27,725 nucleotides of DNA, taken from IMG/VR virus record IMGVR_UViG_3300020190_000287, positions 1 to 27,725 of that record. One strand, 5' to 3'. The notes under the pieces were generated by a model that had not been told where the DNA came from, ran no database searches, and saw nothing but the letters and a program-made list of their open reading frames with translations. Both the position numbers and the translations under genes were made by a program. The stretch comes from a virus. Of this stretch, positions 5,358 through 26,534 are shown piece by piece (the first letter of the stretch is position 1; each line of letters opens with the position of its first letter).

Positions 5358-6566
5358 TTATTTTTTATTCCAAATACTACCAATATTAAAATTGCTACGC
5401 GAAAAGTCGAGACGATCTACTAATTTTAATGCCTGATTACTCATGCGATCAATTGCCACATAGCCTTCAGGAGTAGTAACACGGTATCCCTTGCTGTCTT
5501 TTATGAATGTTCCTACTTCGCCTTTTAGTAACGACAGTTTGTTGACAACACTTAATTTAAGAGTAGACAACCCATTATGTAGTGAAAAAATCTGATTAAT
5601 CTGGTTGCGATTTGCCTTGATCCAATCCATGGACGGTGTAGTTTTTGTGCTTGGTTTTTTTCTGATTATTTTTGTTTTTTGTGCCATTAGAGCAAGCAAT
5701 TGGTTGACATCAGCGTGACCGCTGCCCTTGTTGGAACGCACCAACCCATTAATATAAGTTTTGATAGAGGTTTTTACCCCCTCATTACGGGACAGTGCGT
5801 TCATTACGGTTTTAAGTGATGCTGCTTTTTGTGTAAGTGTAGAGATTGAACGCTCAATGTTTTCGCGTTCAACATGAGAAAACAGAGCGGTACCGTTTGC
5901 AACACGAAGGGTGGCATTATCAAACCACACATTGCGTGATTTTTTTAAATACGATATGTCGGGATTAAACCGCGCAACCATGGTAGAAATAGAGTTGCCT
6001 TCATACGCTGTGTGAAACACAATACCCACCTTTGCAGCAGCAATTCGTTTACCTAATTGACTTTTAGGATCCACAGCGTAGGTAATGGTGTTTGCACGAA
6101 ATGTAAGATAGGTATTGCCGTCAATCTTTTCCCGCACAAGTGTGTCCTGATCAAACAGGAGATCGCCTTGCAGCACTCCACTAATTCCTAATTTAGAAAA
6201 ATATTTAAGTGCAAGTTTAAGTTTAGCGTTCAATCCGTCATTAGGATGGTTTGTGTCAATGTCATCAGGTGTAAAGTTTAGTTTGGGTGTAACATTAAAC
6301 ACACTTTTTGTGCCCACAAAAAACCGACCGCTTGACGGGTCGATTCCACACACAATTGCAGGTGCGCCATCCCACTTTACAGTAACATCGTATGCACTTG
6401 GATTGTTTGCACTAAACGCTTGAATCACTCCACGAATAGACTGTATAGACCTCTTAAACCCACTGTATCCACTGTTTAGAATTTCGTCTTCAAGGTGTTC
6501 CAAGTGGACATTTTTTCCACCCGTTGCCTTTAACGCCTCTGTAAGATGTTCAGTGAATCCAATCAA
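5358..6566 (-). CDS. DUF6267-like protein, possible covalent nucleotidyltransferase (ligase-like), TTG start
   Basis: The product has 402 residues and matches, from memory, the DUF6267 family of T4-like marine phages ('HLEHLEDEIL', 'VTVKWDGAPAIVCGIDP', 'GRFFVGTKSVFN', 'GVLQGDLLFD'). The K64-W-D66-G motif, with a later G-D-L-L at 134-137 and a hydrophobic-lysine strand at 179-186, is like motif I (KxDG) and motif III of DNA/RNA ligases. That similarity is my inference. The start is TTG, preceded by GGAGG at 7 nt; the nearby upstream ATG is out of frame. With this start the N-terminus is MIGFTEHLTEA, which matches a T4-type capsid-targeting sequence with the cleavage site L-T-E at 8-10. A TATAAATA late box lies 20 nt upstream. 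Confidence 0.9.
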   Translation of the reverse strand: MIGFTEHLTEALKATGGKNVHLEHLEDEILNSGYSGFKRSIQSIRGVIQAFSANNPSAYDVTVKWDGAPAIVCGIDPSSGRFFVGTKSVFNVTPKLNFTPDDIDTNHPNDGLNAKLKLALKYFSKLGISGVLQGDLLFDQDTLVREKIDGNTYLTFRANTITYAVDPKSQLGKRIAAAKVGIVFHTAYEGNSISTMVARFNPDISYLKKSRNVWFDNATLRVANGTALFSHVERENIERSISTLTQKAASLKTVMNALSRNEGVKTSIKTYINGLVRSNKGSGHADVNQLLALMAQKTKIIRKKPSTKTTPSMDWIKANRNQINQIFSLHNGLSTLKLSVVNKLSLLKGEVGTFIKDSKGYRVTTPEGYVAIDRMSNQALKLVDRLDFSRSNFNIGSIWNKK

Positions 6567-6585
6567 ACCAGTCCTCCGTTTCCAT

Positions 6586-6593
6586 TATTTATA
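6586..6593 (-). promoter_or_regulatory. T4-type late promoter box TATAAATA
   Basis: The minus strand reads TATAAATA, the exact T4 late -10 consensus, 20 nt before the TTG of the DUF6267-like gene and just after a terminator hairpin. The position between terminator and gene start makes it a good promoter candidate. Confidence 0.75.
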
Positions 6594-6600
6594 CTAAAGA

Positions 6601-6626
6601 AAAACGGCAGGAAAACCTGCCGTTTT
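6601..6626 (-). terminator. Rho-independent terminator of the 6656-7114 gene
   Basis: A perfect 11-bp inverted repeat (AAAACGGCAGG / CCTGCCGTTTT) with a 4-nt loop. On the minus strand the stem is followed by T residues. It lies 30 nt after the stop of the upstream minus-strand gene and 8 nt before the late promoter of the next, so it isolates the two transcripts. The A-rich 5' arm means it could act in both directions. Confidence 0.9.
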
Positions 6627-6655
6627 AGAGTTTACGGGTAACATACCACTTTATT

Positions 6656-7114
6656 TCAGGGATTCAATTTCTTGCGTTCCCTTCTTGCACGAGCCGCTGC
6701 TGCTAACACACTAGTGTGCTTACCAAGACTTGAGTAATTTCCTGATTTGATACGGTCTTCACGCTTTTTAAGCCATTTGTCACGCATACTGAAGTACGCG
6801 TCACCAAGACGCTTCTTGTTTTCAGGATTCGAAAGCCCACGGGAACCTATTCGTGCCCTGTCGTATGCTTTACCAAGACGGGTTAATTTCATTAACCCTG
6901 CTTCATCAATCTTCTCTGATTCTTCGCTCACCGTGGTTTTAAACTTTTTACCCTCTATCGCTGATTCTATTAGTTTATCAGGATTCAGATTCAGTTTTTC
7001 ACAGAGATGCAGGACGATTTCTTCCAAAACAGAAACGTAAGTCCTCTGTGAGTTTTGTACTCTATCAATGCTCTTATTGACAGAACAGTGGGTATTATTA
7101 TTAAATCTTGACAT
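6656..7114 (-). CDS. small basic phage protein, N-terminal paralogue of the 14408-14848 product
   Basis: The product has 152 residues. Residues 1-52 share a pattern with the gene at 14408-14848: M-S-R-[F/L]-N, then S-[V/L]-N-[K/E]-S-I-x-x-V-Q-N, then LE-x-x-x-L-x-LCE-x-LNL-x-P-x-x-L-[I/V]-E. The C-terminal half is basic and Arg/Lys-rich (LGDAYFSMRDKWLKKREDR, ARARRERKKLNP) and could bind nucleic acid. The function is unknown. A TATAAATA late box lies 49 nt upstream inside the end of the preceding nuclease gene, and a strong terminator follows, so this is a single-gene late transcript. That suggests a protein needed in quantity late in infection, such as a virion-internal protein. Confidence 0.8.
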   Translation of the reverse strand: MSRFNNNTHCSVNKSIDRVQNSQRTYVSVLEEIVLHLCEKLNLNPDKLIESAIEGKKFKTTVSEESEKIDEAGLMKLTRLGKAYDRARIGSRGLSNPENKKRLGDAYFSMRDKWLKKREDRIKSGNYSSLGKHTSVLAAAARARRERKKLNP

Positions 7115-7138
7115 GAATAGAATATCCTCTGTTTTTTA

Positions 7139-7807
7139 TTAATTAGAAACTATTGGCTGCTGGTATTTATACATTCTAATTGCTTCCACCAAATCTTCAA
7201 TGTACTCACGAGGATCAGCGGTAAACACCTGACACCCGCCTTCTTCCACACCAATCACAATAGCAATATTTTTAAGTTGCTGACCTGTTCGGTCTTGCCA
7301 CATGAGCGAGTACGCAGTTGCTTGCATAAAGTAGTCGAAAATAGAGTCTTCTGACTTTGAGTAATTTGATGACTTAAAGTCAATAACAGAAGGAACACCA
7401 TCGTATTCCCCAATGCAATCCGCTCTGCCTGCAAGACCAACCTTTGCTGACCACAACGGAACTTCAATGGCAAACACTTTGTTAATACGATCAATATCTT
7501 TTTGCATTGATACAAAAAGATCTCCCTCTGCTGTTCCTGCTGTTTGTTTAATGGCAGCAGGCGTAAGAGTATTGCGGAGATACGTTTCAATAAGTGAGTG
7601 GAGTTTTGTGCCACGAGACAGCACTCGCGCAGACTCTTCAGGGTTGTCGCGTCTCCACTTTGCAAAAAAATCACGCTTTTTCCACCCTGTAACAGTGGTT
7701 ACGGACGGAAAAACTCCGTCAGGAGTCAAGTACTTTCTACTGCCACCACTCTCAATGTTTTGAATGGTTTCATTTAAAACCACAAACTCATGACAAAAAG
7801 TTTTCAT
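7139..7807 (-). CDS. PD-(D/E)XK family nuclease (RecB-like exonuclease)
   Basis: The product has 222 residues with the PD-(D/E)XK layout: a helix with H70-S-L-I-E, then G-L-A-G-R-A-D130, V-I-D143-F-K145-S-S, and a QATAYSLMW helix about 20 residues later. D130, D143 and K145 are the expected metal-binding and catalytic residues, and the Q-x-x-x-Y motif is that of RecB/lambda-exonuclease-type enzymes. It probably degrades or processes DNA ends during replication, recombination or host DNA breakdown. The N-terminus MKTFCHEFVVLNET has an aromatic at residue 4 and L-N-E at 11-13, a weaker match to the capsid-targeting pattern. It starts 3 nt after the stop of the small upstream gene and is probably coupled to it. 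Its last codons contain the late box of the next gene. Confidence 0.9.
   Translation of the reverse strand: MKTFCHEFVVLNETIQNIESGGSRKYLTPDGVFPSVTTVTGWKKRDFFAKWRRDNPEESARVLSRGTKLHSLIETYLRNTLTPAAIKQTAGTAEGDLFVSMQKDIDRINKVFAIEVPLWSAKVGLAGRADCIGEYDGVPSVIDFKSSNYSKSEDSIFDYFMQATAYSLMWQDRTGQQLKNIAIVIGVEEGGCQVFTADPREYIEDLVEAIRMYKYQQPIVSN
7164..7171 (-). promoter_or_regulatory. T4-type late promoter box TATAAATA
   Basis: An exact TATAAATA on the minus strand, embedded in the last codons of the nuclease gene and 49 nt before the ATG of the 6656-7114 gene. Together with the terminator at 6601-6626 it defines a single-gene late unit. Confidence 0.65.
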
Positions 7808-7810
7808 TTT

Positions 7811-7993
7811 TTATTCTTCGGGGTGTTCGTCCACTATTTCGGTGTCTGGCTCTTCAGGCAGCGTGTTTTCAGAACTTGGTGTTTTTTGCACAGGTGTTTG
7901 ATTACGATTTTGCCACTTATTCGCAGCTTGCCACTCAGGATTATTTTTTTGATTTTGCTGTATCCAAGCAAGATAATTTTTCATGTTTGTCAT
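7811..7993 (-). CDS. small Asn/Gln-rich hydrophilic protein, unknown
   Basis: The product has 60 residues. Its N-terminal helix MTNMKNYLAWIQQNQ is followed by a Trp/Gln/Asn-rich stretch and an acidic, Pro-rich tail (LPEEPDTEIVDEHPEE). The ATG at 7993 is preceded by AAGGAG at a good spacing, which is strong support for a real gene despite its length. The stop lies 3 nt before the PD-(D/E)XK nuclease start, so they are probably coupled. It could be a small regulator or partner of the nuclease; no family is recognised. Confidence 0.7.
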   Translation of the reverse strand: MTNMKNYLAWIQQNQKNNPEWQAANKWQNRNQTPVQKTPSSENTLPEEPDTEIVDEHPEE

Positions 7994-8040
7994 GATATTC
8001 TCCTTTAGTATGTAGTTGTTGTGTTAAATTTTTCTGTATC

Positions 8041-8847
8041 CTAGTCAATTATTTTAGAGTAACTGCTTATTAACTCCTCTGATGAACGGGTGTATACAGA
8101 CGCTTGTTTTGAAAATTCGCTTAAAACCGCCTCGGTAAACGGGTGGGCCAGTCCGTATTTTACAATTGCAGGCAGCACAATACCCACTACTGCTTCTTGA
8201 ATGTACGAGTACTTGGTGTCAAAATTAAAGGACTCTTGCCCTTGTTCACGCAGCAGTTGTTTGCTGACTTCTTGAAATGCTAGTCGGTCTTTTTGTGGAA
8301 TAGTGTACAGATTTTTTTCTGCTGTTTCTATTAAATCACAAACACCTTTTACCGCAACGGTTTTCATATAGTAATCGCACTCTTCTTTTAATGTCAGGAA
8401 TTCAAGAGAAGTAGTGTTTTTTCGTAACCGTTTCAGAACATCACAGTAACCAAACAGTTTGATTTCGTTGTTTTCTACACGCACAAAATTGGAGTTCTGC
8501 ATGGCATACGAAATGCTACAGACTCGTTCAAAAATATTTCGTGAAGAAAAAGACTCTGCGTACACTGTTTGATCACCCTGTGTCCAACAGCGAAACATAT
8601 TACCAAATTTAGGAATAAAACGAACAGCAATGTCTTTGGATGAAATCAGTAAAACTTTTGGTGAGTACTTTTCGAGTAAAGAACACACAACAAAACCAAC
8701 AGTTTTTGGTGCAGAGTTTTTGTCTACACTGCACCGTATAGACAAAGGACTTGTTTTATTTGATAACTGATATGTAAGAGTACAAAAATTTGTGTCTTGT
8801 GCCACACAAACCGATCCACCGTTATCAGTTTGCTCATAATTTATCAT
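8041..8847 (-). CDS. hypothetical protein, unknown
   Basis: The product has 268 residues. It is Cys-containing, with beta-rich character in the first 110 residues (CTLTYQLSN, VGFVVCSLLEKY, VLLISSKDIAVRF) and helical character after that. I recognise no motif or family. It starts 7 nt after the stop of the 8855-9415 gene and so belongs to the same operon as the 803- and 186-residue proteins. No strong Shine-Dalgarno is seen. The frame is long, has no competing ORF and fits the strand of its neighbours, so the gene is likely real. Its function cannot be inferred. Confidence 0.8.
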   Translation of the reverse strand: MINYEQTDNGGSVCVAQDTNFCTLTYQLSNKTSPLSIRCSVDKNSAPKTVGFVVCSLLEKYSPKVLLISSKDIAVRFIPKFGNMFRCWTQGDQTVYAESFSSRNIFERVCSISYAMQNSNFVRVENNEIKLFGYCDVLKRLRKNTTSLEFLTLKEECDYYMKTVAVKGVCDLIETAEKNLYTIPQKDRLAFQEVSKQLLREQGQESFNFDTKYSYIQEAVVGIVLPAIVKYGLAHPFTEAVLSEFSKQASVYTRSSEELISSYSKIID

Positions 8848-8854
8848 TATCTAC

Positions 8855-9415
8855 TTACTTTCGTTTTCTTGTTCGTATTCCGAACGTGAGTCGTTTTCGT
8901 AAAGATATTCTGCGCTTACGCCTTGCCTGTGCCCGTTTGCCACGACTTTTACGGGCAGTTTTCCTTGCACTAAGTTTCAGTTTTCTGAGTTGTGAAGCAG
9001 GCTGCTTCATACAAGTTCTAGGAGTTTTCTTTTTAAAGCCGGGAGCGCACTTGAAAATAATTCTCTTTTTGCCTTTTCGCACCACAATTTTACGTTTTGC
9101 GGCAATTTCATTCAGCATTTCACTTTCCACAATAAACTCTTCGTCTATCTCGTCCTCTTCTTCCGTGTCAATAGTAATATCTGCTTCTTCCACAGGATCA
9201 ATAATGTGAATTATATCGTCTTTTTCTTCCCACTCTATACCTTCTTCATCCAAATAGTCCACCACGTCTTCCCGTGAAAAATTGGGCATATCAAGCACAA
9301 TTTTATGTTCAGTGAGTTCTGCATCAAATTCATCAAACAGTATGCGTTGCAGAGACTCAAACGCAAGATCACGTAACTCCTTAAACTGTTTCATGGTGTC
9401 TTTATTTTTTTCCAT
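8855..9415 (-). CDS. bipolar acidic/basic phage protein, possible head-internal DNA-binding protein
   Basis: The product has 186 residues with strong charge asymmetry. Residues 1-105 are acidic (DITIDTEEEDEIDEEFIVE). Residues 110-186 are extremely basic (RKIVVRKGKKRIIFKCAPGF, then a long Arg/Lys run), with a Cys-x-Pro-Gly-Phe then Arg-Thr-Cys pattern seen in uncharacterised marine phage proteins. The ATG at 9415 has AAGGA 8 nt upstream and overlaps the 803-residue gene by 25 nt; a second ATG at residue 8 (MKQFKELRDLAFESL) has no Shine-Dalgarno. Such bipolar proteins often act in prohead cores or condense DNA, but here that is inference only. Confidence 0.85.
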   Translation of the reverse strand: MEKNKDTMKQFKELRDLAFESLQRILFDEFDAELTEHKIVLDMPNFSREDVVDYLDEEGIEWEEKDDIIHIIDPVEEADITIDTEEEDEIDEEFIVESEMLNEIAAKRKIVVRKGKKRIIFKCAPGFKKKTPRTCMKQPASQLRKLKLSARKTARKSRGKRAQARRKRRISLRKRLTFGIRTRKRK

Positions 9416-11802
9416 GCCGCTCTTCCTTGGGCAACACGTTTATTAGCTGCTGCATTTTTCGCAGCTAAAAATCTTTTTCTGCGTTTTATCGAAATGGTTT
9501 CAAGTTCAGTATCAGAAAGTCTTGGCGGCCGCTTACTCCAAGGTAAAAGTTTTCGCATTTCACTGATGTACAGTCTGCCCACATCTATAAAGTCTTCACT
9601 CTCCCAAATCATATCGTTTCCACCGTCAAGCAGTGCTCTACGGGTGCTTTTGTTTAGTACTTGTAAACCATTACCTGAAGCGTGCAAGTCTACTTCAGTG
9701 TTTCCAACCACTAGAATCTTTTCACCTGTTTTCATTATTTTCTTTACTTTTACTTTGGTTTCTTTGCCGCCCTTTTTACCGTAGATTTCGAATGTTGTAC
9801 CCACAGGTTTCATCTCAATAGTGGTAATAAGGTCTTGGGCAGTGGTTTGGTTTTGAGCAATAGAATCGTCTGTTGATTTTCTTGTGGCAGAACGAACAGA
9901 AGCAGACTTAATAATATTACCGTACCTGTCAGTTTTACGGTTTTTTAATGGCTGCATTGCTCTAGAGAAACGAACAGAATCGCTTGGTTCATTTTTTTCG
10001 TGTACACACACAGAGTCTTCAGCACAGACAGACTCCTTAATAATCTTAAATGACTTGCCTGAGTTGCTCTTCACGCTGCCAAGGTAGTCCTTGATTGCTT
10101 TGTTGTGATCTGTTTTCTTACGCTCTACCCACAAATCTAACCAGTTTGTAACCTTGCCAGTTTTGTCTGCTTTGAAAATCATGGTTTCACCTGCAATTGT
10201 GGAGTACGACACAATGTAGTGATTAAATCCGTGACGGTACAAGGTTTGAAATGCGCTTTCGCCTGGTGTGGTTGAGATCTTCATGGTCTTCATTAGATAA
10301 ATTTTGTTTTCTGCCTCGGCACTCTTAGATTTACTGTTAGATTCGTGCAGGTTAAGCACAACACGATTCAAACGATTTGTTTTAAATTTGTTCATAAGGT
10401 ACTCTTCTTTTGTTGGTTTTTTTTCTTGAACAGTTTCTCCACCGCGAGTCTGACTCAGTAGTCCTATATCTTTCTGAAATTTATTGGAGAACTTAATAAT
10501 TTCTTCCACTGGCACAGGTTTACCGCCCTTGCTAATTGTACGGGTCTTCATGGTAGCGTTTGCGCCTGCACCGTTTGCTATATCTATTGCCACCTGTGCT
10601 GCCCAACGGTGGTGACCGTCAATAACGTAACCGTCACTCACGTAGATGGGTTCAAGAAGACGAGCAGCAAACTTGCCGTAGTTCTGCGGGTCTGCTTGTG
10701 CAGCAGCAAGTGTACCGTACATTCCCGCAATCTTCTCGCCCTTTAGTTGTCCTTGAATAGGTTTTAAAGTTGTCACGCTTACGTCTTCTTCCACCACATC
10801 GTAACCAGAGTCTTCAAGAGCTTTGCGGTACTCGCGCTCCATGTTTACTTCACTCTTCAGGTCTTCAGGAGTGACTTGATCAGGTGAAGTGTAACTCTTG
10901 CCGCGCATAAGAGCTTGGAATGCAGGGGTATCTGTGCGGTTGGGATCAACCTGTGACGAGAACTGGGGCATCTGATCACGGGGAATCCCCTTGCTGACTT
11001 TTTGCTTGGTTTTTGGTTCAAAGCATAACCCCAAGTGGGCAAACACTTCCGAACACAATTCAAAATCATACGCTTGCTGTCCGCGCATGGCAGACAGTGC
11101 AGCGTGATTCATTTCTTCTATAAACCGTTGCTCCGCAGCAGCGTCACCAAACACAGACTCTGCGTCACTCTGCGGTCCGTCCAAGTCACCAGACTTTATA
11201 GCCTTTGCCACCACATTTGCTTTACGGATATCAGGTTTGGCTTTTGCTTTCTCTGTAGCCTTTGGATCAGGTTTAATATGCGAGTCAAATTCTGTTTCAG
11301 GATTATTTGCACCTATATCAGGGTGTTCTTCAGTGTCGGATTGCGCCGTACTTGTTTCACTGTTTTGCGGTTGTGTTGCACTCTGAGTATTGTCTGCTGC
11401 TGTTTGCGCTTTTGCTTTGGGAGGAGGTGCTACGAGCTTAGAAACAGGTATGGGTTCTGTGGTTCCCTTGGGTTTTGCTTTTACAGGAGTTTCTTCTGCA
11501 CTTTTTTGTGCCTCGTAACCGTCACGATCCAATTCAACAGGAACTGATGTGTCGCCAGGTTTGTCTACACGACCAGCAGGTTTAAAATTTCCAGAAATCC
11601 ACGCTTTTGCACTGTCTTCGTCTTCAAAGTAATCAATCGCACCGTCTTTGTTTTTTGCTCCCCATTTTCCACCGGCAGTTTTCCAAGTTTGATTAATTTT
11701 TTTTTCTTTGGGAGCAGACGGGGGTTGTGTGGCAGGTTTACTGGCAGTTTGTACCTCGTATATCACAGTACGTAAACTCTTGTACGGTTCAAGATTTTCC
11801 AT
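9391..11802 (-). CDS. large multidomain protein with ParB/sulfiredoxin-like domain
   Basis: The product has 803 residues, the longest on this strand. The N-terminus MENLEPYKSLRTVIYEVQ has I-Y-E at 14-16, a possible prohead-protease site. Residues about 39-71 are a small Trp/Gly module (TWKTAGGKWGAKN, then DYFEDEDSAKAWISG). Residues 90-200 are a Pro/Lys/Ala/Thr-rich linker. Residues about 345-425 resemble a ParB/Srx-like domain: L-K-P-I-Q-G-Q-L, E-K-I-A-G-M, and V-I-D-G-H-H-R-W-A-A near 392-402, the core nucleotide/DNA motif of that superfamily. The C-terminal part has a basic helical end (RRKRFLAAKNAAANKRVAQG). GGAG lies 6 nt before the ATG. Its role is unknown; a ParB-like NTPase or nuclease carried in the virion is one possibility. 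Confidence 0.88.
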   Translation of the reverse strand: MENLEPYKSLRTVIYEVQTASKPATQPPSAPKEKKINQTWKTAGGKWGAKNKDGAIDYFEDEDSAKAWISGNFKPAGRVDKPGDTSVPVELDRDGYEAQKSAEETPVKAKPKGTTEPIPVSKLVAPPPKAKAQTAADNTQSATQPQNSETSTAQSDTEEHPDIGANNPETEFDSHIKPDPKATEKAKAKPDIRKANVVAKAIKSGDLDGPQSDAESVFGDAAAEQRFIEEMNHAALSAMRGQQAYDFELCSEVFAHLGLCFEPKTKQKVSKGIPRDQMPQFSSQVDPNRTDTPAFQALMRGKSYTSPDQVTPEDLKSEVNMEREYRKALEDSGYDVVEEDVSVTTLKPIQGQLKGEKIAGMYGTLAAAQADPQNYGKFAARLLEPIYVSDGYVIDGHHRWAAQVAIDIANGAGANATMKTRTISKGGKPVPVEEIIKFSNKFQKDIGLLSQTRGGETVQEKKPTKEEYLMNKFKTNRLNRVVLNLHESNSKSKSAEAENKIYLMKTMKISTTPGESAFQTLYRHGFNHYIVSYSTIAGETMIFKADKTGKVTNWLDLWVERKKTDHNKAIKDYLGSVKSNSGKSFKIIKESVCAEDSVCVHEKNEPSDSVRFSRAMQPLKNRKTDRYGNIIKSASVRSATRKSTDDSIAQNQTTAQDLITTIEMKPVGTTFEIYGKKGGKETKVKVKKIMKTGEKILVVGNTEVDLHASGNGLQVLNKSTRRALLDGGNDMIWESEDFIDVGRLYISEMRKLLPWSKRPPRLSDTELETISIKRRKRFLAAKNAAANKRVAQGRAAWKKIKTP

Positions 11803-11803
11803 T

Positions 11804-12889: not shown

Positions 12890-14305
12890 TCACTTTCGCC
12901 ACTTGTTGTTGTCTTTAGACCTGTTCGTGTGTCTAGACACCAAACGAAGATTGGAGGGCCGTGAGTCTAGTGCGTTGCCGTTTTTGTGGTCAATTTCTTT
13001 TCCGTCATTGGAGCGGCCTTCACGGCCCATACGCCTCAGTACCCGCTTTCGTGCAGTTTTCTTTTTCATTGCCACGCGCTGTTTGGGTGTAGGGTTGTCG
13101 CCACCGTACATTTTGGTGTACTCTGCCTTGTAGTCGCGCTCTTCGTGTACTCCCTGTTTTGACTTATATTTTACAAGACGGGTGCGGAGTCGAACATGGG
13201 GAAACTGAGACTTTAGTGTTTTTGCAAACTGTATGTTTTTTGCGTTGTCGTCCCAGAACTCAATATCGGTGTACCCTTGCTGAATTGCGGTTTCCAACCA
13301 GTCACGCTTGCGCTGTGCAATAGTGGTGTGGGTTGCGCCCGTGTGGCCCACGGTGAAAACAGGAACGTCAATGCCAATGCTTTGCAACCACTTGCGTACA
13401 GAGTTGCCGTCCGTTCTGCCTGTAAGAATCACAGTTTTTTTGCCTTGTGCAAGCACTTCACGCATTACTTTCAGAACCGCACCAATTGGACGGGGATCAA
13501 TTACTTTGTTTGCACCACTAAAATCGTATGTTTCACCAGGTTTAAGCAAGTACTCTTTAAACCGCAAAGAGGACAGCCTGTGCAGAGTTTTGCCGTTACT
13601 CAGAACTCCCACATACGCTTTTGTGTGTGCAAGGGTGTCATCAAAATCAAATACACGCAGAAACTTTTGTGGTTCACGTGCGCCTGTGGATTGGGAACCC
13701 GTATTCCTTCCACCCACTGTGGGTTTTGTTTTGTGGTTATACGATTCAGGAACAGTGCCGCGCAGGGAATTGTCTGTATTTTTCCACTTCATGCCTGCTG
13801 GTGGTTTTGCAGAGGCTTCCACTTTTTCCAACGGCAGCACGGTTAATTTTGCAGTAGTCACCGTGCGCCTGTTTTCAGGCGTACCCGTGGTGTAGCGGTC
13901 GGTAATGGTGTAACCAAACTCTTTGCCCAGTCTCCGCATCATTGCCGAGTACACCGCATCGCGCTTGCTTTCACTGCTTTTAGACACCATGATCAGTTCT
14001 TTTGGCAGTTCGTCCCACCAGTCCATGTGGTCTTTCAGAAACAAACGAACCGCTTGCCCAACCGTGGCAAGTATGCGGTGGGGTTTGCCGTGATTGGTAA
14101 GATTGTGCGAACCGTCAAGCGTAAAGTTTATTTCCCATCCACTAATTTTAACTTTGGTAATATCAATGTTCAGGTACTGTCCGCTTCGGGTCTGTGCCTG
14201 ATAGGTAACTTCAATGGTAGTGGGCCCGTAACCAATACGCTTTAATTCACGCACAGGTAAAGGCTGCTCAAACAGTTCGGTGAGATAGGATACGAAACTG
14301 TTCAT
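12890..14305 (-). CDS. HAD phosphatase / HNH endonuclease fusion with capsid-targeting-like N-terminus
   Basis: The product has 471 residues in three parts. Residues 1-11, MNSFVSYLTEL, match a T4-type capsid-targeting sequence with L-T-E at 8-10. Residues 20-160 are a phage domain I cannot name. Residues 214-355 are a HAD-superfamily phosphatase: D220-F-D222-D-T, V-I-L-T295-G-R, and F-W-D352-D353. Residues 385-471 are an HNH-type endonuclease: KEID439-H440-K-N-G-N, then D-S-R-P-S-N-L-R-L-V and a closing N-R-S motif, with a basic lead-in. The HAD part may remove 3'- or 5'-phosphates or act on nucleotides, and the HNH part may cut DNA. It lies in a stand-alone late region; no strong Shine-Dalgarno precedes the ATG. 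Confidence 0.9.
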   Translation of the reverse strand: MNSFVSYLTELFEQPLPVRELKRIGYGPTTIEVTYQAQTRSGQYLNIDITKVKISGWEINFTLDGSHNLTNHGKPHRILATVGQAVRLFLKDHMDWWDELPKELIMVSKSSESKRDAVYSAMMRRLGKEFGYTITDRYTTGTPENRRTVTTAKLTVLPLEKVEASAKPPAGMKWKNTDNSLRGTVPESYNHKTKPTVGGRNTGSQSTGAREPQKFLRVFDFDDTLAHTKAYVGVLSNGKTLHRLSSLRFKEYLLKPGETYDFSGANKVIDPRPIGAVLKVMREVLAQGKKTVILTGRTDGNSVRKWLQSIGIDVPVFTVGHTGATHTTIAQRKRDWLETAIQQGYTDIEFWDDNAKNIQFAKTLKSQFPHVRLRTRLVKYKSKQGVHEERDYKAEYTKMYGGDNPTPKQRVAMKKKTARKRVLRRMGREGRSNDGKEIDHKNGNALDSRPSNLRLVSRHTNRSKDNNKWRK

Positions 14306-14407: not shown

Positions 14408-14848
14408 TTACCTCTGATCAGACCACCCACCGTAACGGCTGCCAGTAATATCTCGTGAGTCTTTGCGGGGTGATGTTTTTATTCCCTTTATTACTTTGCC
14501 GCCCTTGCCAAACACCTTGTGGCTGCTGCCTTCTTTTTCGTAACGCTTGCCAAGAGCCTGTGACCGTTTGTACGCTTTGTTAAACCCTGCGCTGTTTTGC
14601 TTTCGCTTTGCGTCTGTCTTTTTGTTTGCTTCCTTCATTTTTTTTGACAGCTCCCGTTCACGCTCTTGGGTCATTACGTCTTCCACCAGTTCCTGTGGAT
14701 CAAGGTTTAACTCCTCGCACAGGGACAGAATAACTGTTTCCAGTGCAGCAGTGTACTCTAGTGCTTCCTGTAGAGCAGCTTCTGGGTTCTGAACACTGGC
14801 AATGCTTTCGTTAAGCGAAGAGTACTTTTCGGTGTTTAATCGTGACAT
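14408..14848 (-). CDS. small basic phage protein, N-terminal paralogue of the 6656-7114 product
   Basis: The product has 146 residues. Its first 60 residues match those of the 6656-7114 protein: MSRLNTEKYSSLNESIASVQ, then 'LETVILSLCEELNLDPQELVE' in the same spacing. The rest is Lys/Arg-rich and helical, and different from its paralogue (ERERELSKKMKEANKKTD, then SQALGKRYEKEGSSHKVFGK). The ATG has AAGGAA 12 nt upstream. The pair may be a family of head-internal or regulatory proteins that share a targeting or dimerising N-terminus and differ in the nucleic-acid-binding tail; this is inference. Confidence 0.8.
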   Translation of the reverse strand: MSRLNTEKYSSLNESIASVQNPEAALQEALEYTAALETVILSLCEELNLDPQELVEDVMTQERERELSKKMKEANKKTDAKRKQNSAGFNKAYKRSQALGKRYEKEGSSHKVFGKGGKVIKGIKTSPRKDSRDITGSRYGGWSDQR

Positions 14849-15365: not shown

Positions 15366-15680
15366 CTATTGCAGTCCTGAAAGTCTGTCTATTGCCATTC
15401 GCGTTTGTCTCTTTCTGGCCTCGCTCCACTCCAAGTGCTTTCCGTTTCTCCAGTACCCTAGTCGCCAGTCGTCCGAGGCGTAGGCACTGGTAGGCAACTT
15501 GTCCTTTGCAAACACTGTGGCAAAACCAAAATCAACGTACGCCAGAATGTACTTGTCCCGGTGTTTCTTGCTTGCAGCGGTAGCCAACTTGTTCAGGTCT
15601 GCAAACGACTGTACAGGGATTTGATCGTGTATTTTTTGTGAGTTTGCTGCTTCATACAAATACGATTTAAAACTGTTCAT
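15366..15680 (-). CDS. small protein with capsid-targeting-like N-terminus, unknown function
   Basis: The product has 104 residues. MNSFKSYLYEA matches the capsid-targeting pattern with a predicted cleavage after L-Y-E at 8-10, leaving a mature protein of about 94 residues that starts with Ala. The mature part has a helix (FADLNKLATAASKKH), a beta-hairpin-like region (YILAYVDFGFATVFAKD) and a basic helical C-terminus. No family is recognised. The ATG overlaps the stop of the upstream gene as ATGA, so the two are coupled. It lies 13 nt upstream of the thermonuclease gene. Confidence 0.85.
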   Translation of the reverse strand: MNSFKSYLYEAANSQKIHDQIPVQSFADLNKLATAASKKHRDKYILAYVDFGFATVFAKDKLPTSAYASDDWRLGYWRNGKHLEWSEARKRQTRMAIDRLSGLQ

Positions 15681-16138
15681 TTGCGTTTCCGTTTGTTGCG
15701 GCCGCGCAGTCTAGCAGCAGCGGCGGCCTCCGCCCTTTCCCATCCCCCCTGTGCCTGTACCCCCTGAGTAAACGCCTGTGTGCTGTCACGAGCTCCTGCG
15801 CCCACGCCTGGTGTAAAGTACTGTACCCGAAAGTCGTGCCACCCCGTACGAGCAGCCTCTTTTTTTGCTTTTTCCGTGTCTGCGGGAGTTCTGCTAGTGA
15901 CGGGCCCTGTAAGCAGTACCTGTGCGTGGAAAGGGTCGGTTTCGCCTTTTTTAGTGCCCCACAGTGCGTACTGTTTTGCAGCGTCATACGACACTGCTTG
16001 TTTGCCTAACAGTGCGTAATGTGTTCCGCGTGCCTCGTGTACAGAATTGGCTTTATTGGGGGTGTGGGAGTCACTGATCACGCCACGAATGGCTGCGGTG
16101 AGATCAGGGTAGGAGTCTTTACGGAAGGGGGGTGTCAT
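15677..16138 (-). CDS. hypothetical basic protein
   Basis: The product has 153 residues. The start MTPPFRKDSYPDLTAAIRGV is a loose match to the start pattern of the two MSR proteins here (aromatic or His, then two residues, then a [S/T/A]-I-x-x-V helix). The middle carries HYALLGKQAVSYDAAKQYAL and a Gly/Ala/Gln-rich stretch, and the end is a run of Arg/Lys (RLRGRNKRKRK). I see no enzyme motif. The ATG overlaps the previous gene by 20 nt and the stop overlaps the next ATG, so it is in an operon. The gene is likely real because it is conserved in strand and spacing with its neighbours. Confidence 0.75.
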   Translation of the reverse strand: MTPPFRKDSYPDLTAAIRGVISDSHTPNKANSVHEARGTHYALLGKQAVSYDAAKQYALWGTKKGETDPFHAQVLLTGPVTSRTPADTEKAKKEAARTGWHDFRVQYFTPGVGAGARDSTQAFTQGVQAQGGWERAEAAAAARLRGRNKRKRK

Positions 16139-20188: not shown

Positions 20189-20195
20189 GAACACC

Positions 20196-21599: not shown

Positions 21600-21632
21600 T
21601 CCAACACAACACACACACAGACTGTACGCAAA

Positions 21633-21692: not shown

Positions 21693-22152
21693 GCGTAAGA
21701 ATACCTCTGTGCGTAATGACGCACCATACGGATCACGCGGGTGGGGGCATTTCTCAACTCAGGTTGAGGCATCGTCTGCACTTCTCTGCACTCATCCACA
21801 CGGATGGATCAAAACAAACACAGATAGAGATGATGTCGGAGAGAAGGGATGGGCTCACAGGATAGTGATCAGGTTTCCTAATGAGTACTCTTTAAGCGTT
21901 GTGTACGGGACAGGTATGTACTCAACAAATTCAAAGGGTAATCGTTTTGAGAAACTTGAATTGCATTCCGAAGAGCACGCAACCACTGTGGAGATTGCAA
22001 TTATTGATCCTAGAGGAGAATTCTTGCCCTTCAAGAACGGCGAAACTGTAAAGGGTTTCGTGACTGTTCCAGAACTTCTCGAAATTGTTAATTGGATTTC
22101 CACTCAACCCGCAAAACACACACAAGAAAGCGTTACAACTTCTAATGTCTAA
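21679..22152 (+). CDS. conserved phage protein, unknown; start uncertain
   Basis: The frame gives 157 residues from a TTG at 21679, and its first 10 residues are uncertain because a frameshifted ATG start is likely upstream at 21633. 'VRNDAPYGSRGWGHFSTQVE' and 'RFPNEYSLSVVYGTGMYST', later 'VEIAIIDPRGEFLP' and 'VKGFVTVPELLEIVNWI', have the look of a small conserved phage family. I do not know a function. It overlaps the next gene by 8 nt (ATGTCTAA), so the two are translationally coupled and co-transcribed with the CobS-like gene. Confidence 0.7.
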   Translation: MSPLERKNTSVRNDAPYGSRGWGHFSTQVEASSALLCTHPHGWIKTNTDRDDVGEKGWAHRIVIRFPNEYSLSVVYGTGMYSTNSKGNRFEKLELHSEEHATTVEIAIIDPRGEFLPFKNGETVKGFVTVPELLEIVNWISTQPAKHTQESVTTSNV

Positions 22153-22987: not shown

Positions 22988-23011
22988 AAAAGAAAAAGAA
23001 AAAGAACACCA

Positions 23012-23356
23012 ATGCACCACTCACCTATTCGTCATTCACCCACTTCGATCAGCGATTTTCTCGCACAATTTCAGGAGCAGTTTCTAATGTTTATTGAAAA
23101 GACCCAACAACTAGACCAAAAAGACCCCCAAGGGTTTGAGTCTTTGCTTATTGGTCTGCTTTCACTGTCACGCTCTAGGGTTCCACCCGAACTACTGTCC
23201 GCTGAAGAACACGAACTTATCCGTTCGTGGATTGCAGCAATGAACGAATACGACCAGTCAAAAATGATACAGTTAAGCACTGTTATTCTCCGCGATCACG
23301 AACAGGAACAGGAGCGACTCGCGGACGCTGCACGACGAACTCGGAGTTCGCAGTGA
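23012..23356 (+). CDS. small helical acidic protein, unknown
   Basis: The product has 114 residues, mostly helical with many Glu, Gln and Leu (FLAQFQEQFLMFIEKTQQLD, ELLSAEEHELIRSWIAAMNE, ILRDHEQEQERLADAARR). No family is recognised. The ATG is preceded by an A/G-rich tract AAGAAAAAGAAAAAGAACACC that may help ribosome binding in place of a Shine-Dalgarno. It is 25 nt after the previous gene and followed by the AT-hook-like protein gene, so it is within the operon. A small interaction or inhibitor protein is possible. Confidence 0.7.
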   Translation: MHHSPIRHSPTSISDFLAQFQEQFLMFIEKTQQLDQKDPQGFESLLIGLLSLSRSRVPPELLSAEEHELIRSWIAAMNEYDQSKMIQLSTVILRDHEQEQERLADAARRTRSSQ

Positions 23357-23409
23357 CCTTTTTACCTGTACCGTACCCTTCTCACCTTACCTCTCACCTT
23401 TTACCCACT

Positions 23410-23862
23410 ATGACCATGACCATTTCATCCACCATCTCACCCACTCCATCCACTCCATCCACCACCACTCCATCCACCATGACTACTGTACCAAACACAC
23501 CAGCCTCGCCCATGCTTGCTTCATACACCCCAGGTCAAATTGAATTTATTAAGTTTCTCCACGCCAATCGCGCTGCACTCACTGTTTACGACACCTGCAC
23601 AGTGTCCCGAAAGGAGCTTGTTGACCTGCTCTCCAAGTCTGTGTACGTGGCAGTACCCGCGTGGATTTCAACCACGCCAGTGCGCCGTGCCGGCCGTGGC
23701 AACTACCAGATTCCTGAACTGAATGTGGATCCTGCAACCCTCACGGTAAACACAAACACCCGTGGTCGCCGACCCGGCTCCCCTAACCGCAAGGGCCGTG
23801 GCCCCGCACCCGCACCCGCACCTGCATCTGGTGCAGTTGCTCCCACCACCCCAAACTCGTAA
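23410..23862 (+). CDS. small protein, paralogue of the CobS-like N-terminal domain, AT-hook-like tail
   Basis: The product has 150 residues from ATG 23410; downstream ATGs at 23416 and 23479 are also possible. The N-terminus is a Thr/Ser/Pro-rich stretch with short tandem DNA repeats. Then 'YTPGQIEFIKFLHANRAAL' leads into 'VAVPAWISTTPVRRAGRGNY' and 'QIPEL', which match residues 30-100 of the CobS-like protein. The end, T-R-G-R-R-P-G-S-P-N-R-K-G-R-G-P followed by a Pro/Ala repeat, resembles an AT-hook DNA-binding motif. A DNA-binding or adaptor role linked to the ATPase is inferred. Confidence 0.75.
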   Translation: MTMTISSTISPTPSTPSTTTPSTMTTVPNTPASPMLASYTPGQIEFIKFLHANRAALTVYDTCTVSRKELVDLLSKSVYVAVPAWISTTPVRRAGRGNYQIPELNVDPATLTVNTNTRGRRPGSPNRKGRGPAPAPAPASGAVAPTTPNS

Positions 23863-23867
23863 ACCAC

Positions 23868-24149
23868 ATGAGAAAAACAATTTTTAAACTTACCTGTATT
23901 GTGCTTGCGTACTGTGCCCCTGGCTGTCACACCCGTACAAACGTTGTGCGTACAGTGCAGCACAAGGACGGCACAGTGGAAACGTACACAAACTACTCTG
24001 ACGGGTACAACTACAACCCTAATTGGACAGGTCACAGTGACATGAACTCCTCCAACAGGGTAAACACACACAACACACAGGACATTTCCACCCAACTTTC
24101 AGGGTTTGGATCTGCTCCATCAGCGTCTGGTCAGTACACTATTCGATAA
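23868..24149 (+). CDS. small secreted or lipoprotein-like protein
   Basis: The product has 93 residues. Residues 1-20, MRKTIFKLTCIVLAYCAPGC, look like a signal peptide with a weak lipobox around A-P-G-C20. The mature part is Asn/Tyr/Ser/Thr-rich (YTNYSDGYNYNPNWTGHS), as in surface-exposed phage or bacterial small proteins. It could be an envelope protein involved in superinfection exclusion or lysis, but no such motif is clear. It begins 5 nt after the stop of the previous gene and the next gene starts 22 nt after it, so it is in the operon. Confidence 0.7.
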   Translation: MRKTIFKLTCIVLAYCAPGCHTRTNVVRTVQHKDGTVETYTNYSDGYNYNPNWTGHSDMNSSNRVNTHNTQDISTQLSGFGSAPSASGQYTIR

Positions 24150-24171
24150 CTCTTACAGCAAGGCTCTTTCC

Positions 24172-24495
24172 ATGCAAGGCAAAATCACAATTAAAATTTT
24201 AACTAGCAGAATTGCGTATCTGCTTAGTGAAAACACCCGTTTACGCACAGAACTCGCCTGTGCACTAGACTCCGCGGCCGCAGCGGCCGCCGAAAACGCC
24301 CGGTTACTGAAGATTTGTGAGGTTTTCGACTACCGCCCGGCAAAAACAAACACGGTGACCCCCCCTGCGGACCGCGCAAGCCTCCGCAGCTGCGGAACCA
24401 CCACCACAAACGCTTCACTCCACGAGCTGTATCCCCACGGTGGGGACGGTGGGGACGAATTTTTACCTGATACCGTGGAAGACACCGCGTCATGA
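24172..24495 (+). CDS. small coiled-coil protein
   Basis: The product has 107 residues from ATG 24172; a longer frame would begin inside the previous gene. Residues 10-50 (LTSRIAYLLSENTRLRTELA, then an Ala run and ENARLLKICEVF) form a predicted coiled coil. The tail is acidic (DGGDEFLPDTVEDTAS). The gene holds the doublet GCGGCCGC-A-GCGGCCGC that encodes part of the Ala run. The ATG of the next gene overlaps the stop as ATGA. Function unknown. Confidence 0.7.
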   Translation: MQGKITIKILTSRIAYLLSENTRLRTELACALDSAAAAAAENARLLKICEVFDYRPAKTNTVTPPADRASLRSCGTTTTNASLHELYPHGGDGGDEFLPDTVEDTAS

Positions 24496-24701
24496 CCACT
24501 ACATACCCTGTACTGTCCAATGGCTGCGTACAGTTGTGGACAAAAGGCTGGAATTCTCCCCGATGCACTGTGACCCGTGGCGCAACATCTGCTGTACTGT
24601 ACGGGGACGAACTAGTTGTGACCCGACTAGACGGCTCCACCACTGTGTACAGACTTACCCGTAACGGCACCAGTGCGTATCCTGTTCGCAACATTAAATG
24701 A
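24492..24701 (+). CDS. small beta-rich protein, unknown
   Basis: The product has 69 residues. 'GCVQLWTKGWNSPRCTVTRG', then 'AVLYGDELVVTRLDGSTTVY', gives a short beta-sheet layout with repeated Val/Thr/Arg strands. No family is sure. It overlaps both neighbours by 4 nt (ATGA at 24492-24495 and ATGA at 24698-24701), which strongly supports a translated gene and shows a tight operon. Confidence 0.75.
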   Translation: MTTTYPVLSNGCVQLWTKGWNSPRCTVTRGATSAVLYGDELVVTRLDGSTTVYRLTRNGTSAYPVRNIK

Positions 24702-24877
24702 AACCTCCCATGCACACATCATTTTTTAAACATTTAAACACTGCCTCTGATTCTGTGGACTTTGATTTTGACTCTTCTATTCGCTCAGACTCTGATTCGT
24801 GGGACGAAACCCCACCGGTAGACCCTGATGACCCTGATCTGGACGAGTGGCTAGAGGACGACGAAGACAACTTTTAA
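24698..24877 (+). CDS. 59-residue very acidic protein
   Basis: ATG at 24698 overlaps the previous stop (ATGA) and the frame runs to TAA at 24875-24877. After a short start (MKPPMHTSFFKHLN) nearly every third residue is Asp or Glu: SVDFDFDSSIRSDSDSWDE, then DPDDPDLDEWLEDDEDNF. A tail this acidic suggests a DNA mimic or a binder of basic proteins, but no family is known. The overlap and the lack of other coding explain its being real despite its short length. It ends 6 nt before the tRNA. Confidence 0.7.
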   Translation: MKPPMHTSFFKHLNTASDSVDFDFDSSIRSDSDSWDETPPVDPDDPDLDEWLEDDEDNF

Positions 24878-24883
24878 ATAACT

Positions 24884-24959
24884 GGCACTGTAGCCCAATG
24901 GCAGAGGCACCAGACTTAAAATCTGGACAGTGCGGGTTCAAGTCCCGCCAGTGCTACCA
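24884..24959 (+). tRNA. tRNA with anticodon UAA (Leu), class I shape, CCA encoded
   Basis: A full cloverleaf of 76 nt: 7-bp acceptor stem with a G-U first pair, D-arm with GCC/GGC, anticodon stem CCAGA/TCTGG with loop CTTAAAA (anticodon TAA at 24917-24919), variable loop of only 5 nt (ACAGT), T-stem GCGGG/CCCGC with TTCAAGT and the encoded CCA. The anticodon predicts Leu (UUA), yet bacterial tRNA-Leu normally has a long variable arm. Charge identity is thus uncertain. Confidence 0.92.
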
Positions 24960-24979
24960 AAAAACAAACCGCAGAGACT

Positions 24980-25014
24980 AGCAATTCGTTTGCTGTCGTG
25001 ATTCGCACCACGAC
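24980..25014 (+). other. two back-to-back hairpins between tRNA and terminator
   Basis: AGCAA-TTCGT-TTGCT (24980-24994) and GTCGTG-ATTCGCAC-CACGAC (24995-25014) stack end to end just before the terminator hairpin. They could fold as a small stable RNA, act in 3' processing of the tRNA transcript or protect it from decay. No function is known. Confidence 0.4.
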
Positions 25015-25025
25015 TAACCTGCACG

Positions 25026-25061
25026 ACCCCGTGGTTCACGGAATGACCACGGGGTTTTTTT
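25026..25061 (+). terminator. strong Rho-independent terminator after the tRNA
   Basis: ACCCCGTGGT (25026-25035) and ACCACGGGGT (25046-25055) form a 10-bp GC-rich stem with a 10-nt loop, then seven T's. It ends the plus-strand operon that begins at the CobT-like gene. Confidence 0.95.
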
Positions 25062-25185
25062 ATTTCTACTGCGCGGCATGGGTTCGGATACCAGTGTTTG
25101 GGGGCTGGTAGTGGGCCTTTAGATAGTCGATTAGCAGCTCCGACCAAATCCCTGTATTGTTTTTAAATATTGCGGCACCCACCGC

Positions 25186-25209
25186 ACCCCCCAAAGTTTT
25201 AAAATATTC
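25186..25209. repeat. direct repeat ACCCCCCAAAGTTTTAAAATA... copy 1
   Basis: The 24-nt block with six C's, AAAGTTTTAAAATATTC, recurs at 25222-25246 with one C more. A third partial copy (TTTTTAAATATTGCGG) lies just upstream at 25160-25175. It sits in a gene-free spacer next to the promoter at 25256. Confidence 0.85.
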
Positions 25210-25221
25210 GCCCCCCGTACC

Positions 25222-25246
25222 ACCCCCCCAAAGTTTTAAAATATTC
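25222..25246. repeat. direct repeat copy 2
   Basis: The same block as at 25186-25209 with seven C's. It ends 9 nt before the -35 box, so it could be an operator. Confidence 0.85.
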
Positions 25247-25255
25247 AGTGCAGTC

Positions 25256-25283
25256 TTGACAAACACCACACAGCTTGTATCTT
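25256..25283 (+). promoter_or_regulatory. sigma70-like promoter TTGACA-N16-TATCTT
   Basis: An exact TTGACA -35 box is followed after 16 nt by TATCTT. The ATG of the next gene is 30 nt downstream. This promoter would restart transcription after the terminator and is next to the direct repeats. Confidence 0.6.
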
Positions 25284-25313
25284 TACAGTGCAATTACCCA
25301 CACACCACTGCCC

Positions 25314-25565
25314 ATGCGCGATTTTCACAATATTGAATTGGTATTAAAGTTTAAATGCAGTTCTGTTTCCGAGGCAAACCACATGGCAAAACAAGCCATG
25401 GAAGACCTTGGAAACACAGACGAAACCCCCCTGTTCAAAGAAGCACAGATTTGGATTGACGGGGTAAAAGCACAGACTGCGGCACTTAACACAGAAAACA
25501 CAAACACTTTACCACACCAGAACGATTCAGACACACCACACCCCACCAATGAAACGACACATTGA
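25314..25565 (+). CDS. small protein, unknown
   Basis: The product has 83 residues from ATG 25314. The first 60 residues form a compact alpha/beta pattern (FHNIELVLKFKCSSVSEANH, MAKQAMEDLGN, LFKEAQIWIDGVKA), followed by an Asn/Thr/His-rich tail. A longer frame from a TTG at 25275 would begin before the expected transcript start. The frame follows a good sigma70-like promoter and overlaps the next gene by 17 nt, so it opens the three-gene unit 25314-25955. No family is recognised. Confidence 0.7.
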   Translation: MRDFHNIELVLKFKCSSVSEANHMAKQAMEDLGNTDETPLFKEAQIWIDGVKAQTAALNTENTNTLPHQNDSDTPHPTNETTH

Positions 25566-25740
25566 CCGTATTGACATTGAAGCAGAGCGCGAAGCACATT
25601 TTATTAATTTACACTCCCGCACCATTACCAAACCGTGGGGGTACAACAAAAAGACCCACGCTGCTCGCGCAGCACGACGCGCTGCCGATGCCTGGATTGA
25701 GTGCCGTACCATTCCGCACCACTACTCTAGGGGGTTTTAA
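25549..25740 (+). CDS. small basic protein, unknown
   Basis: The product has 63 residues, Arg/His/Ala-rich (MKRHIDRIDIEAEREAHFIN, HAARAARRAADAWIE), probably helical. It overlaps the previous gene by 17 nt and its TAA shares a base with the next ATG (TAATG), which supports coupled translation. No family is recognised. Confidence 0.65.
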   Translation: MKRHIDRIDIEAEREAHFINLHSRTITKPWGYNKKTHAARAARRAADAWIECRTIPHHYSRGF

Positions 25741-25955
25741 TGACTCGCCTGTGTGAAGACTGTGAAACCGTTATTCCTCCTGCTCGTCTAGAAGCAGTTC
25801 CGCACACCAAAACTTGCGTACGGTGTTCGCGTGAAAAGGCCTACGTTGGATTCATGGACTGGCACCACAAAACTGCACCTGAAATCGTGCTGATTAATCC
25901 TGACAACAAAGAAGCTGTTCGTAGAGCTCGTGCAGTGTACGAAAGACGGCGATAA
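25740..25955 (+). CDS. DksA/TraR-like zinc-finger protein
   Basis: The product has 71 residues. C5-E-D-C8 and C26-V-R-C29 flank 'ETVIPPARLEAVPHTKT', which is the C-x2-C...C-x2-C zinc finger with the I-P-x-x-R-L-x-A-x-P motif of the DksA/TraR C-terminal family. It lacks the long coiled coil of full DksA, so it is like TraR and phage members that bind RNA polymerase. It could modulate host transcription. The C-terminus has a basic helix (EAVRRARAVYERRR). It ends the small plus-strand unit and converges on the next gene. Confidence 0.88.
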   Translation: MTRLCEDCETVIPPARLEAVPHTKTCVRCSREKAYVGFMDWHHKTAPEIVLINPDNKEAVRRARAVYERRR

Positions 25956-25970
25956 GCCGTGCGGGGTGGT

Positions 25971-26534
25971 TTAGCAGTTCCACTTTCGCAGACTCTTGTT
26001 GATTCGGGAGTCTGGGTCTCGTGCAGTGGCTGCAGAGGTAAGTTTTGCCTTCATCCCCTTCATGCGCGAACAGAAAGACTTGCGGCGGTTTGCGCTTTTG
26101 GAGCCAGGCTTTAATTTGCTTGGTTTGGTGGTTACTGCGGTTTGCAGTTTAGAGCCAGGATTCTGACGGCGATACGAAGCCACACCTGCCGCGTTCAGTC
26201 CCCCTTCAGGGTTTTTGCCTTCTTTGCGTTGCCACGCAGGAGACGTGTCTTCACTTATTTTTTTAGACCAGTTTTCTCTTTTCGCAACAGTACTCTTGCC
26301 GCCAGGGCCCACGTTTCTAATCTCGTACCCAATCTTTTTATTGGGGTTTGTCTCCACCCGAATCATCTGCTTTTTTTTATTCAAAACCTTCAAGCCTTTC
26401 TTTAAGTTTTTTAAGCCAGGCGTGTCGGTGCCTGTAAGAAAGCTTTGGATTACTCGCGCTCGGCGTTCACGGGTAAGGCCTATTTTTCTCTGTTCTGAAA
26501 CAGGGTCTGAAATGTACTGTGAAAATTTTTTCAT
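25971..26534 (-). CDS. DUF6321-like basic protein, capsid-targeting-like N-terminus
   Basis: The product has 187 residues. Residues 99-187 (SPAWQRKEGKNPEGGLNAAG, VASYRRQNPGSKLQ, PSKLKPGSKSANRRKSFC, RMKGMKAKLTSAATARDPDS) match, from memory, the DUF6321 family of marine phages. The N-terminus MKKFSQYISDPVSE has F4, Y7, I8 and D10, close to the capsid-targeting pattern but with Asp in place of Glu. The protein is very basic. A TATAAATA late box lies 49 nt upstream, and the gene is convergent with the DksA-like gene. A virion-internal protein is the most likely role; it is inferred. Confidence 0.88.
   Translation of the reverse strand: MKKFSQYISDPVSEQRKIGLTRERRARVIQSFLTGTDTPGLKNLKKGLKVLNKKKQMIRVETNPNKKIGYEIRNVGPGGKSTVAKRENWSKKISEDTSPAWQRKEGKNPEGGLNAAGVASYRRQNPGSKLQTAVTTKPSKLKPGSKSANRRKSFCSRMKGMKAKLTSAATARDPDSRINKSLRKWNC

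Follow-up and report, generated by a model that had tools for sequence, protein, structure and literature searches.

The DNA analysed here (the window) is a linear IMG/VR fragment of 27,725 bases (record IMGVR_UViG_3300020190_000287), this 27.7-kb fragment being the whole of the available record. Three of its genes encode proteins that begin with a predicted capsid-targeting sequence (CTS) resembling that of the internal head proteins of phage T4: a DUF6267 protein, a fusion of a HAD phosphatase with an HNH domain, and a protein of 104 amino acids. An initial annotation, made from the sequence alone, had singled out their N-termini, MIGFTEHLTEA, MNSFVSYLTEL and MNSFKSYLYEA; these lie where it placed them, with an aromatic residue at position 4, an aromatic residue or His at 7 and [LI]xE at 8-10, and all the open reading frames (ORFs) that it named are present, on the minus strand. 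Gene content and synteny (the DUF6267, NMNAT-like, phrog_407, CobS and VWA-peptidase genes) place the window near the Kyanoviridae (Melnitz-3, Pelagibacter phage HTVC008M), and the virus is taken to be an aquatic, T4-related phage of the T4 superfamily (Kyanoviridae-like). The proteins of one relative, the 150-kb G001, are 68-73% identical to those of the window.

The DUF6267 protein (5358-6566, minus strand, 402 amino acids; PF19782, E=2.7e-100) starts with MIGFTEHLTE/A, where the slash marks the predicted cut, here after E10. Residues 1-10 are encoded at 6537-6566 (minus strand) by TTG ATT GGA TTC ACT GAA CAT CTT ACA GAG behind a GGAGG ribosome site, and every close relative starts with TTG, GTG or ATG at the identical place. 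Of 26 aligned DUF6267 proteins, 25 have F4, E10 and A11; the linker (residues 12-17) varies in length and residues, and the domain begins at K18; residues 1-20 of the AF2 model have a pLDDT below 50. The domain contains ligase/nucleotidyltransferase-like motifs (KWDG, EGYVAID and KLVDR), and K64-W-D-G67, E367-G368 and K381 are invariant across the 26 sequences. A fold search of the PDB gave a DNA ligase as the best match and more ligases after it, all of them weak (E 0.014 and up), and in a viral library the protein's own family came first, followed by RNA ligases, DNA ligases and capping enzymes. A sequence search of the PDB returned no match, and no paper on DUF6267 was found in the open literature searched, subscription papers lying outside that search.

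Upstream of this gene (6566-6640) an intrinsic terminator, the T4-late-promoter-like octamer TATAAATA (6586-6593, minus strand), GGAGG and the TTG start follow in direct succession. Octamers of this type occur three times on the minus strand of the window against 0.9 expected, all at most 60 nucleotides from a start. As a conserved late promoter of the tagged genes TATAAATA was nevertheless rejected, since it is not conserved in relatives despite the three well-placed copies in the window.

The HAD-HNH protein (12890-14305, minus strand, 471 amino acids) consists of the tag MNSFVSYLTE/L, encoded at 14276-14305 on the minus strand, an N-domain, a HAD phosphatase domain (residues 216-380) and an HNH domain (residues 430-461). 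Profile matches include HNH_3 (E=1.4e-8) and the polynucleotide kinase family phrog_415 (2.9e-12), the HAD motifs DxDxT, TxR, K and DD are invariant, and one HAD homologue matches HAD_SAK_1 just under its cut-off. The best PDB match of the HAD model is Pnkp1 (4xru; E=1.1e-3, probability 1.0, but a root-mean-square deviation of 9.6), which is part of the bacterial Pnkp1/Rnl/Hen1 RNA-repair complex. Relatives combine the tag and N-domain with HAD and HNH or with HNH only, and in distant phages the tag is placed straight onto HAD (MINFKDYIAES, MLSFKTYLSEG), so that the HAD enzyme keeps its CTS with or without the 200-residue N-domain. In three relatives (L011, L012, L014) the tagged HAD gene overlaps a tagged DUF6267 gene (TAATG). 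The comparison of homologues proposed in the initial annotation thus found the motif conserved apart from the domains, both in the DUF6267 alignment with its variable linker and among the HAD architectures. The third protein, a predicted orphan cargo (15366-15680, minus strand), begins with MNSFKSYLYE/A, and its start overlaps the preceding stop (ATGA).

A strict CTS pattern (F, Y or W at position 4; F, Y, W, H or L at 7; L, I, V or M at 8; E at 10) matches 3 of the 24 window genes, namely these three. Among the 2,864 internal Met sites of the window and of four relatives there is no match (P about 1e-7, computed with 1/2864 as the rate), and a column-wise shuffle of residues between the window genes produced at least three matches in 0.02% of trials (P = 0.0002). 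At the N-termini of the four relatives the pattern was found 20 times in 601, against 0.36 expected. Applied to T4 it returns IPII, IPIII and gp61.1, and this control bore out the IPIII N-terminus, MKTYQEFIAEA, which the initial annotation had quoted; applied to T7 it returns none. The strict counts are conservative, because T4 IPI itself has a longer tag (MKTFKEF...ITE/A). The T4 protein gp61.1 (NC_000866 18966-19130, 54 amino acids, uncharacterised) starts with MKTFKEFIKED and, judged by this match, may be a further T4 head protein.

Mutagenesis in T4 assigns targeting to residues 4 and 7 and processing to residues 8 and 10, with D10 blocking processing alone (PMC9026906). All three window proteins have F4, and position 7 is H, Y and Y in the DUF6267, HAD-HNH and 104-residue proteins; this His is aromatic-like, yet lies outside the T4 residue set at that position. 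[LI]xE occupies residues 8-10 throughout (LTE/A in the DUF6267 protein, LYE/A in the 104-residue protein and LTE/L in HAD-HNH).

The cleavage machinery is found in the relatives. The gp21-like protease that the initial annotation called for does not occur in the 27.7-kb window; one S77 (gp21-type) peptidase and one gp23-type capsid protein are encoded in each of G001, G002, G004, G005 and the more distant G010, all of at least 96 kb, and an S77 peptidase also occurs in S-CREM2, S-SCSM1, S-SZBM1, Melnitz-3 and HTVC008M. In close relatives the N-terminal region of the gp23-type protein ends with MLVE/A, MLTE/G or MLVE/V, aligning with FLTE/A of T4, where gp23 is known to be cut. Since this capsid site ([FM]LxE) aligns with that of T4, the tags contain the very specificity that the capsid protein implies.

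The same relatives display the modularity of the tag. G001 has six consecutive tagged genes, one of them for a Nudix hydrolase (PF00293, E=1.2e-17), and G005 likewise has six, with one opposing ORF call in between; a tagged SAM-lyase-family protein (PF23780) is present in L079, and tagged sigma-region-4 proteins are also found. Without their first 14 residues, the tagged proteins of these contigs sort into 19 groups that are unrelated to one another, among which a few singletons may be false calls. The cargo varies between close relatives and the tag is constant. By sequence comparison, the tag behaves as a module that in different relatives fronts a HAD phosphatase, a Nudix hydrolase, a SAM lyase, DUF6267 or an NMNAT-like protein.

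Published virion proteomes of cyanophages contain several tagged enzymes. The strict matches in S-CREM2 are a SAM lyase (MKDFDSFLEE; PF23780, E=2.3e-19), an APH/ChoK-like kinase (MKRFDAFLTE) and an NMNAT-like cytidylyltransferase (MKNFSSFLTE). All three belong to the 52 proteins of the virion list, against 49 of the 232 other ORFs (235 ORFs, any in-frame start being accepted; P=0.010, and P=0.0017 once structural virion proteins are set aside; PMC10665884). ORF13 (MKDLHSFLTE) is likewise in the list, and the Cas9-like ORF12 bears the tag in shifted form. The NMNAT of S-SCSM1, an annotated virion protein, starts with MKSFLQFLKEA (PMC9602691), and the cytidylyltransferase of S-SZBM1 (MRFRQFIIEA) was detected in virions (PMC9146016). 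In the same open literature, mentions of capsid targeting were not applied to these virion enzymes. As a side observation, no Pfam match was found for the S-CREM2 virion protein encoded at OR473000 7704-10313, and its Cas9/Csn1 annotation looks doubtful; the protein has a CTS-like stretch in a shifted position (LRFASFMAEAA). The window has its own NMNAT/cytidyltransferase-like protein (4253-5335, minus strand; phrog_3041, 3.2e-45), which is untagged and 30-36% identical to SSCSM1_91, S-SZBM1_140 and S-CREM2_154; these tagged homologues are virion proteins in the three cyanophages.

Head-packaged proteins are the first phage proteins met by the host, and to our knowledge few are known by function (T4 Ip1-3 and Alt). 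Tags on enzymes here, together with tagged enzymes in related virions, indicate that this virus probably injects a small enzyme kit. The DUF6267, HAD-HNH and 104-residue proteins are probably internal head proteins delivered with the DNA, their tag being a mobile module, and the set is most likely a larger, shuffled version of the injected internal proteins of T4. Residues 4 and 7 would steer each protein into the scaffold core, enclosing it in the prohead; a gp21-type protease would then cut after [LI]xE at residue 10 and free the enzyme, the genome would be packed around the cargo, and the cargo would enter the host with the DNA at infection, ahead of any phage gene expression. Counter-defence at entry is most likely the general role, by analogy with T4, whose IPI, Ip2 and Ip3 act as inhibitors of type IV restriction enzymes; a tag that fronts different enzymes in different relatives, often in rows of overlapping genes, is what would be expected of quickly changing anti-defence or host-takeover cargo.

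Several points weigh against this interpretation. Packaging, cleavage, injection and enzyme roles in this phage are predictions, and the window, as a 27.7-kb fragment, is itself without the gp21-type protease and capsid genes. HAD-HNH has L, a large residue, in place of a small one at position 11, the IMG/VR search found no relative of the 104-residue protein, and the late-promoter octamers are not conserved in relatives. In the proteomes the small tagged proteins SSCSM1_30, S-SZBM1_191 and S-SZBM1_192 were undetected, possibly for reasons of sensitivity, and, according to the proteome papers, contamination of the CsCl preparations may account for some of the enzymes. When the three phages are pooled, four of eight strict-tag proteins were detected against 17% (P=0.036); with all loose matches included P=0.046, so that the tag predicts virion location only moderately.

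The N-terminal likeness might merely reflect the shared ancestry of one family, or an effect of translation starts, with no targeting signal involved. HAD-HNH and several proteins of the arrays do share a domain after the tag (FDxPF...), and tagged genes often overlap the preceding gene. Yet 19 unrelated groups remain behind the tag, the folds of DUF6267, Nudix, SAM lyase and HAD are unrelated, composition is excluded by the column-shuffle and internal-Met controls, and neighbouring genes with equally good ribosome sites carry no tag, all of which makes this reading very improbable. A somewhat stronger, still unlikely, alternative is that the tagged proteins are parts of the prohead core or scaffold, made for assembly and then kept in the head or degraded, their enzyme-like domains having a purely structural role and nothing useful being injected. 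In T4 the substrates of gp21 include the core proteins gp22 and gp67 (PMC9026906), the neighbouring proteins look basic and core-type, and that encoded at 8855-9415 matches the head scaffolding family phrog_3503. Against such a structural role, the HAD catalytic residues and the KWDG/EG motifs of DUF6267 are invariant, close relatives swap the cargo and keep the tag, and the tagged SAM lyase, kinase and NMNAT-like protein of virions are enzymes by family.

If the tagged proteins are internal head proteins, as preferred here, the DUF6267 and NMNAT-like proteins might form one complex for which one tagged partner suffices, a refinement that is possible but held with reserve. Fusions of both occur in phrog_455 and in a protein of S-PM2, and where their genes are adjacent (4253-5335 and 5358-6566 in the window; also S-SZBM1, Syn9, S-WAM1 and Melnitz-3) the tag alternates between them: it is on DUF6267 in the clade of the window, on the NMNAT-like protein in cyanophages and on both in Melnitz-3. 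An argument against co-packaging comes from S-SZBM1, whose virions contained the NMNAT-like protein and not the adjoining untagged DUF6267 protein (PMC9146016), in a shallow proteome of 30 proteins. Homologues lacking the motif, which the initial annotation had named as counter-evidence, exist for the nuclease discussed below; for DUF6267 they are confined to cyanophages, in which the tag is carried by the NMNAT-like gene next to it. More tentative is a nucleic-acid end-repair kit in the head, in which the Pnkp1-like HAD phosphatase and the ligase-like DUF6267 protein would be injected to repair, ahead of phage gene expression, RNA or DNA that nucleases of the host defence have cut, perhaps alongside the SAM lyase and NAD-metabolism enzymes of relatives; it is suggested by the ligase-like motifs and weak fold matches of DUF6267 and by the match of HAD to Pnkp1.

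The closest known counterparts are IPI, IPII and IPIII of T4 (Tequatrovirus), which share an N-terminal tag of 10-19 residues with aromatic residues at 4 and 7 and [LI]xE, an S77 protease (gp21 in T4, here encoded in the relatives), and a cargo that varies behind an unchanging tag. Once injected, Ip1-3 of T4 inhibit type IV restriction enzymes (PMC12373910, PMC3012670). Whereas the T4 proteins are small inhibitors, the cargo here is large and enzymatic (HAD-HNH and DUF6267; Nudix and SAM lyase in relatives), and as many as six tagged genes stand in a row in relatives. The head-packaged, gp21-processed and injected ADP-ribosyltransferase Alt of T4 (PMC9026906) is an unrelated enzyme, and no Alt-like match was found among the scanned window proteins. 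The cyanomyoviruses S-CREM2, S-SCSM1 and S-SZBM1 have homologues belonging to this gene cluster and tagged virion NMNAT-like, SAM lyase and kinase proteins, but DUF6267 is untagged in those examined, and their papers describe the proteins and draw no connection to a targeting sequence. The ejection proteins of SPN3US/phiKZ are also head-packaged, processed by a prohead protease and ejected, and differ in cleavage motif and head lineage, a distinction drawn from the published descriptions (PMC5694885, PMC9026906). A ten-residue tag that is readable from sequence lists candidate injected proteins in the genomes of uncultivated marine and freshwater phages, for which published virion proteomes are a ready test set. 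It also offers a reason why NMNAT-like, SAM lyase and kinase enzymes, whose presence had been unexplained, recur in the virions of cyanophages, and suggests that injected proteins counter host defences by removing SAM, by nucleotide or NAD chemistry and possibly by repairing nucleic acids.

Other N-termini in the window fit less well. The initial annotation had listed weaker, shifted matches beside the closer ones; the CTS reading is supported for the three proteins above and not for the Cas4/exonuclease-like nuclease (7139-7807, minus strand; phrog_298), whose MKTFCHEFVVLNET is the N-terminus of a domain. As CTS cargo it was rejected because its homologues lack the motif, and the stretch runs into the Cas4/exonuclease domain; the homologue in S-SCSM1 is not among the listed virion proteins. 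A defence-library search returned no match.

The 187-residue protein (25971-26534, minus strand) begins with the CTS-like leader MKKFSQYISDP, and its C-terminal domain, of family phrog_727, is 50% identical to the virion protein SSCSM1_29. The leader's F4, Y7 and I8 agree with the earlier description of the leader as close to the pattern, and D10 does not. Relatives have a MKKF[ST]QYL leader with a later LxE, like T4 IPI, and in G001, G004 and G005 this leader precedes SAM-lyase-family proteins. By analogy with T4, in which D10 blocks processing alone (PMC9026906), the protein is possibly targeted and uncut at residue 10, and the relatives suggest a later cut.

The 340-residue protein (2142-3164, minus strand), a candidate cargo or core protein, and the 803-residue ParB-like protein (9391-11802, minus strand), a weak candidate, had been listed as weaker matches. 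Both have a related, conserved leader, of a longer and different pattern. The first (MNENTKQFKDFRNTLHES; FKDFRNTLHE/S, residues 8-17) is conserved as FKxFRxxLxE/S in 11 relatives, and the Melnitz-3 protein at the equivalent position, adjoining a phrog_407-type gene, starts with MKNFKNHIAEE; the second (YKSLRTVIYE/V) is conserved as YKSLRxxIxE. From these sequences a second, longer CTS variant, [Y/F]Kx[FL]Rxx[LI]xE, is plausible but unproven. The pattern [FY]-K-x-[FL]-R-x-x-[LIA]-x-E heads three unrelated proteins, 2142-3164, 9391-11802 and 8855-9415; relatives conserve it for the first two, and in the third the E is lost. A second module of about 35 residues, W[KRQ]T..G.(W/F)G(A/G)(K/M)...G...YF....A, occupies about residues 40-80 of the 803-residue protein and recurs in tagged proteins of relatives (G001 82546-83388; G004 140775-141629; G005 105328-106164 and 79433-80281).

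A further N-terminal layout is common to 6656-7114, 14408-14848 and 15677-16138 (MSRFNNNTHCSVNKSIDRVQ, MSRLNTEKYSSLNESIASVQ and MTPPFRKDSYPDLTAAIRGVI), and in G001 and G004 a start resembling it precedes a phrog_727-type domain. The window also carries a tRNA-Leu (taa) gene at 24884-24959 on the plus strand.

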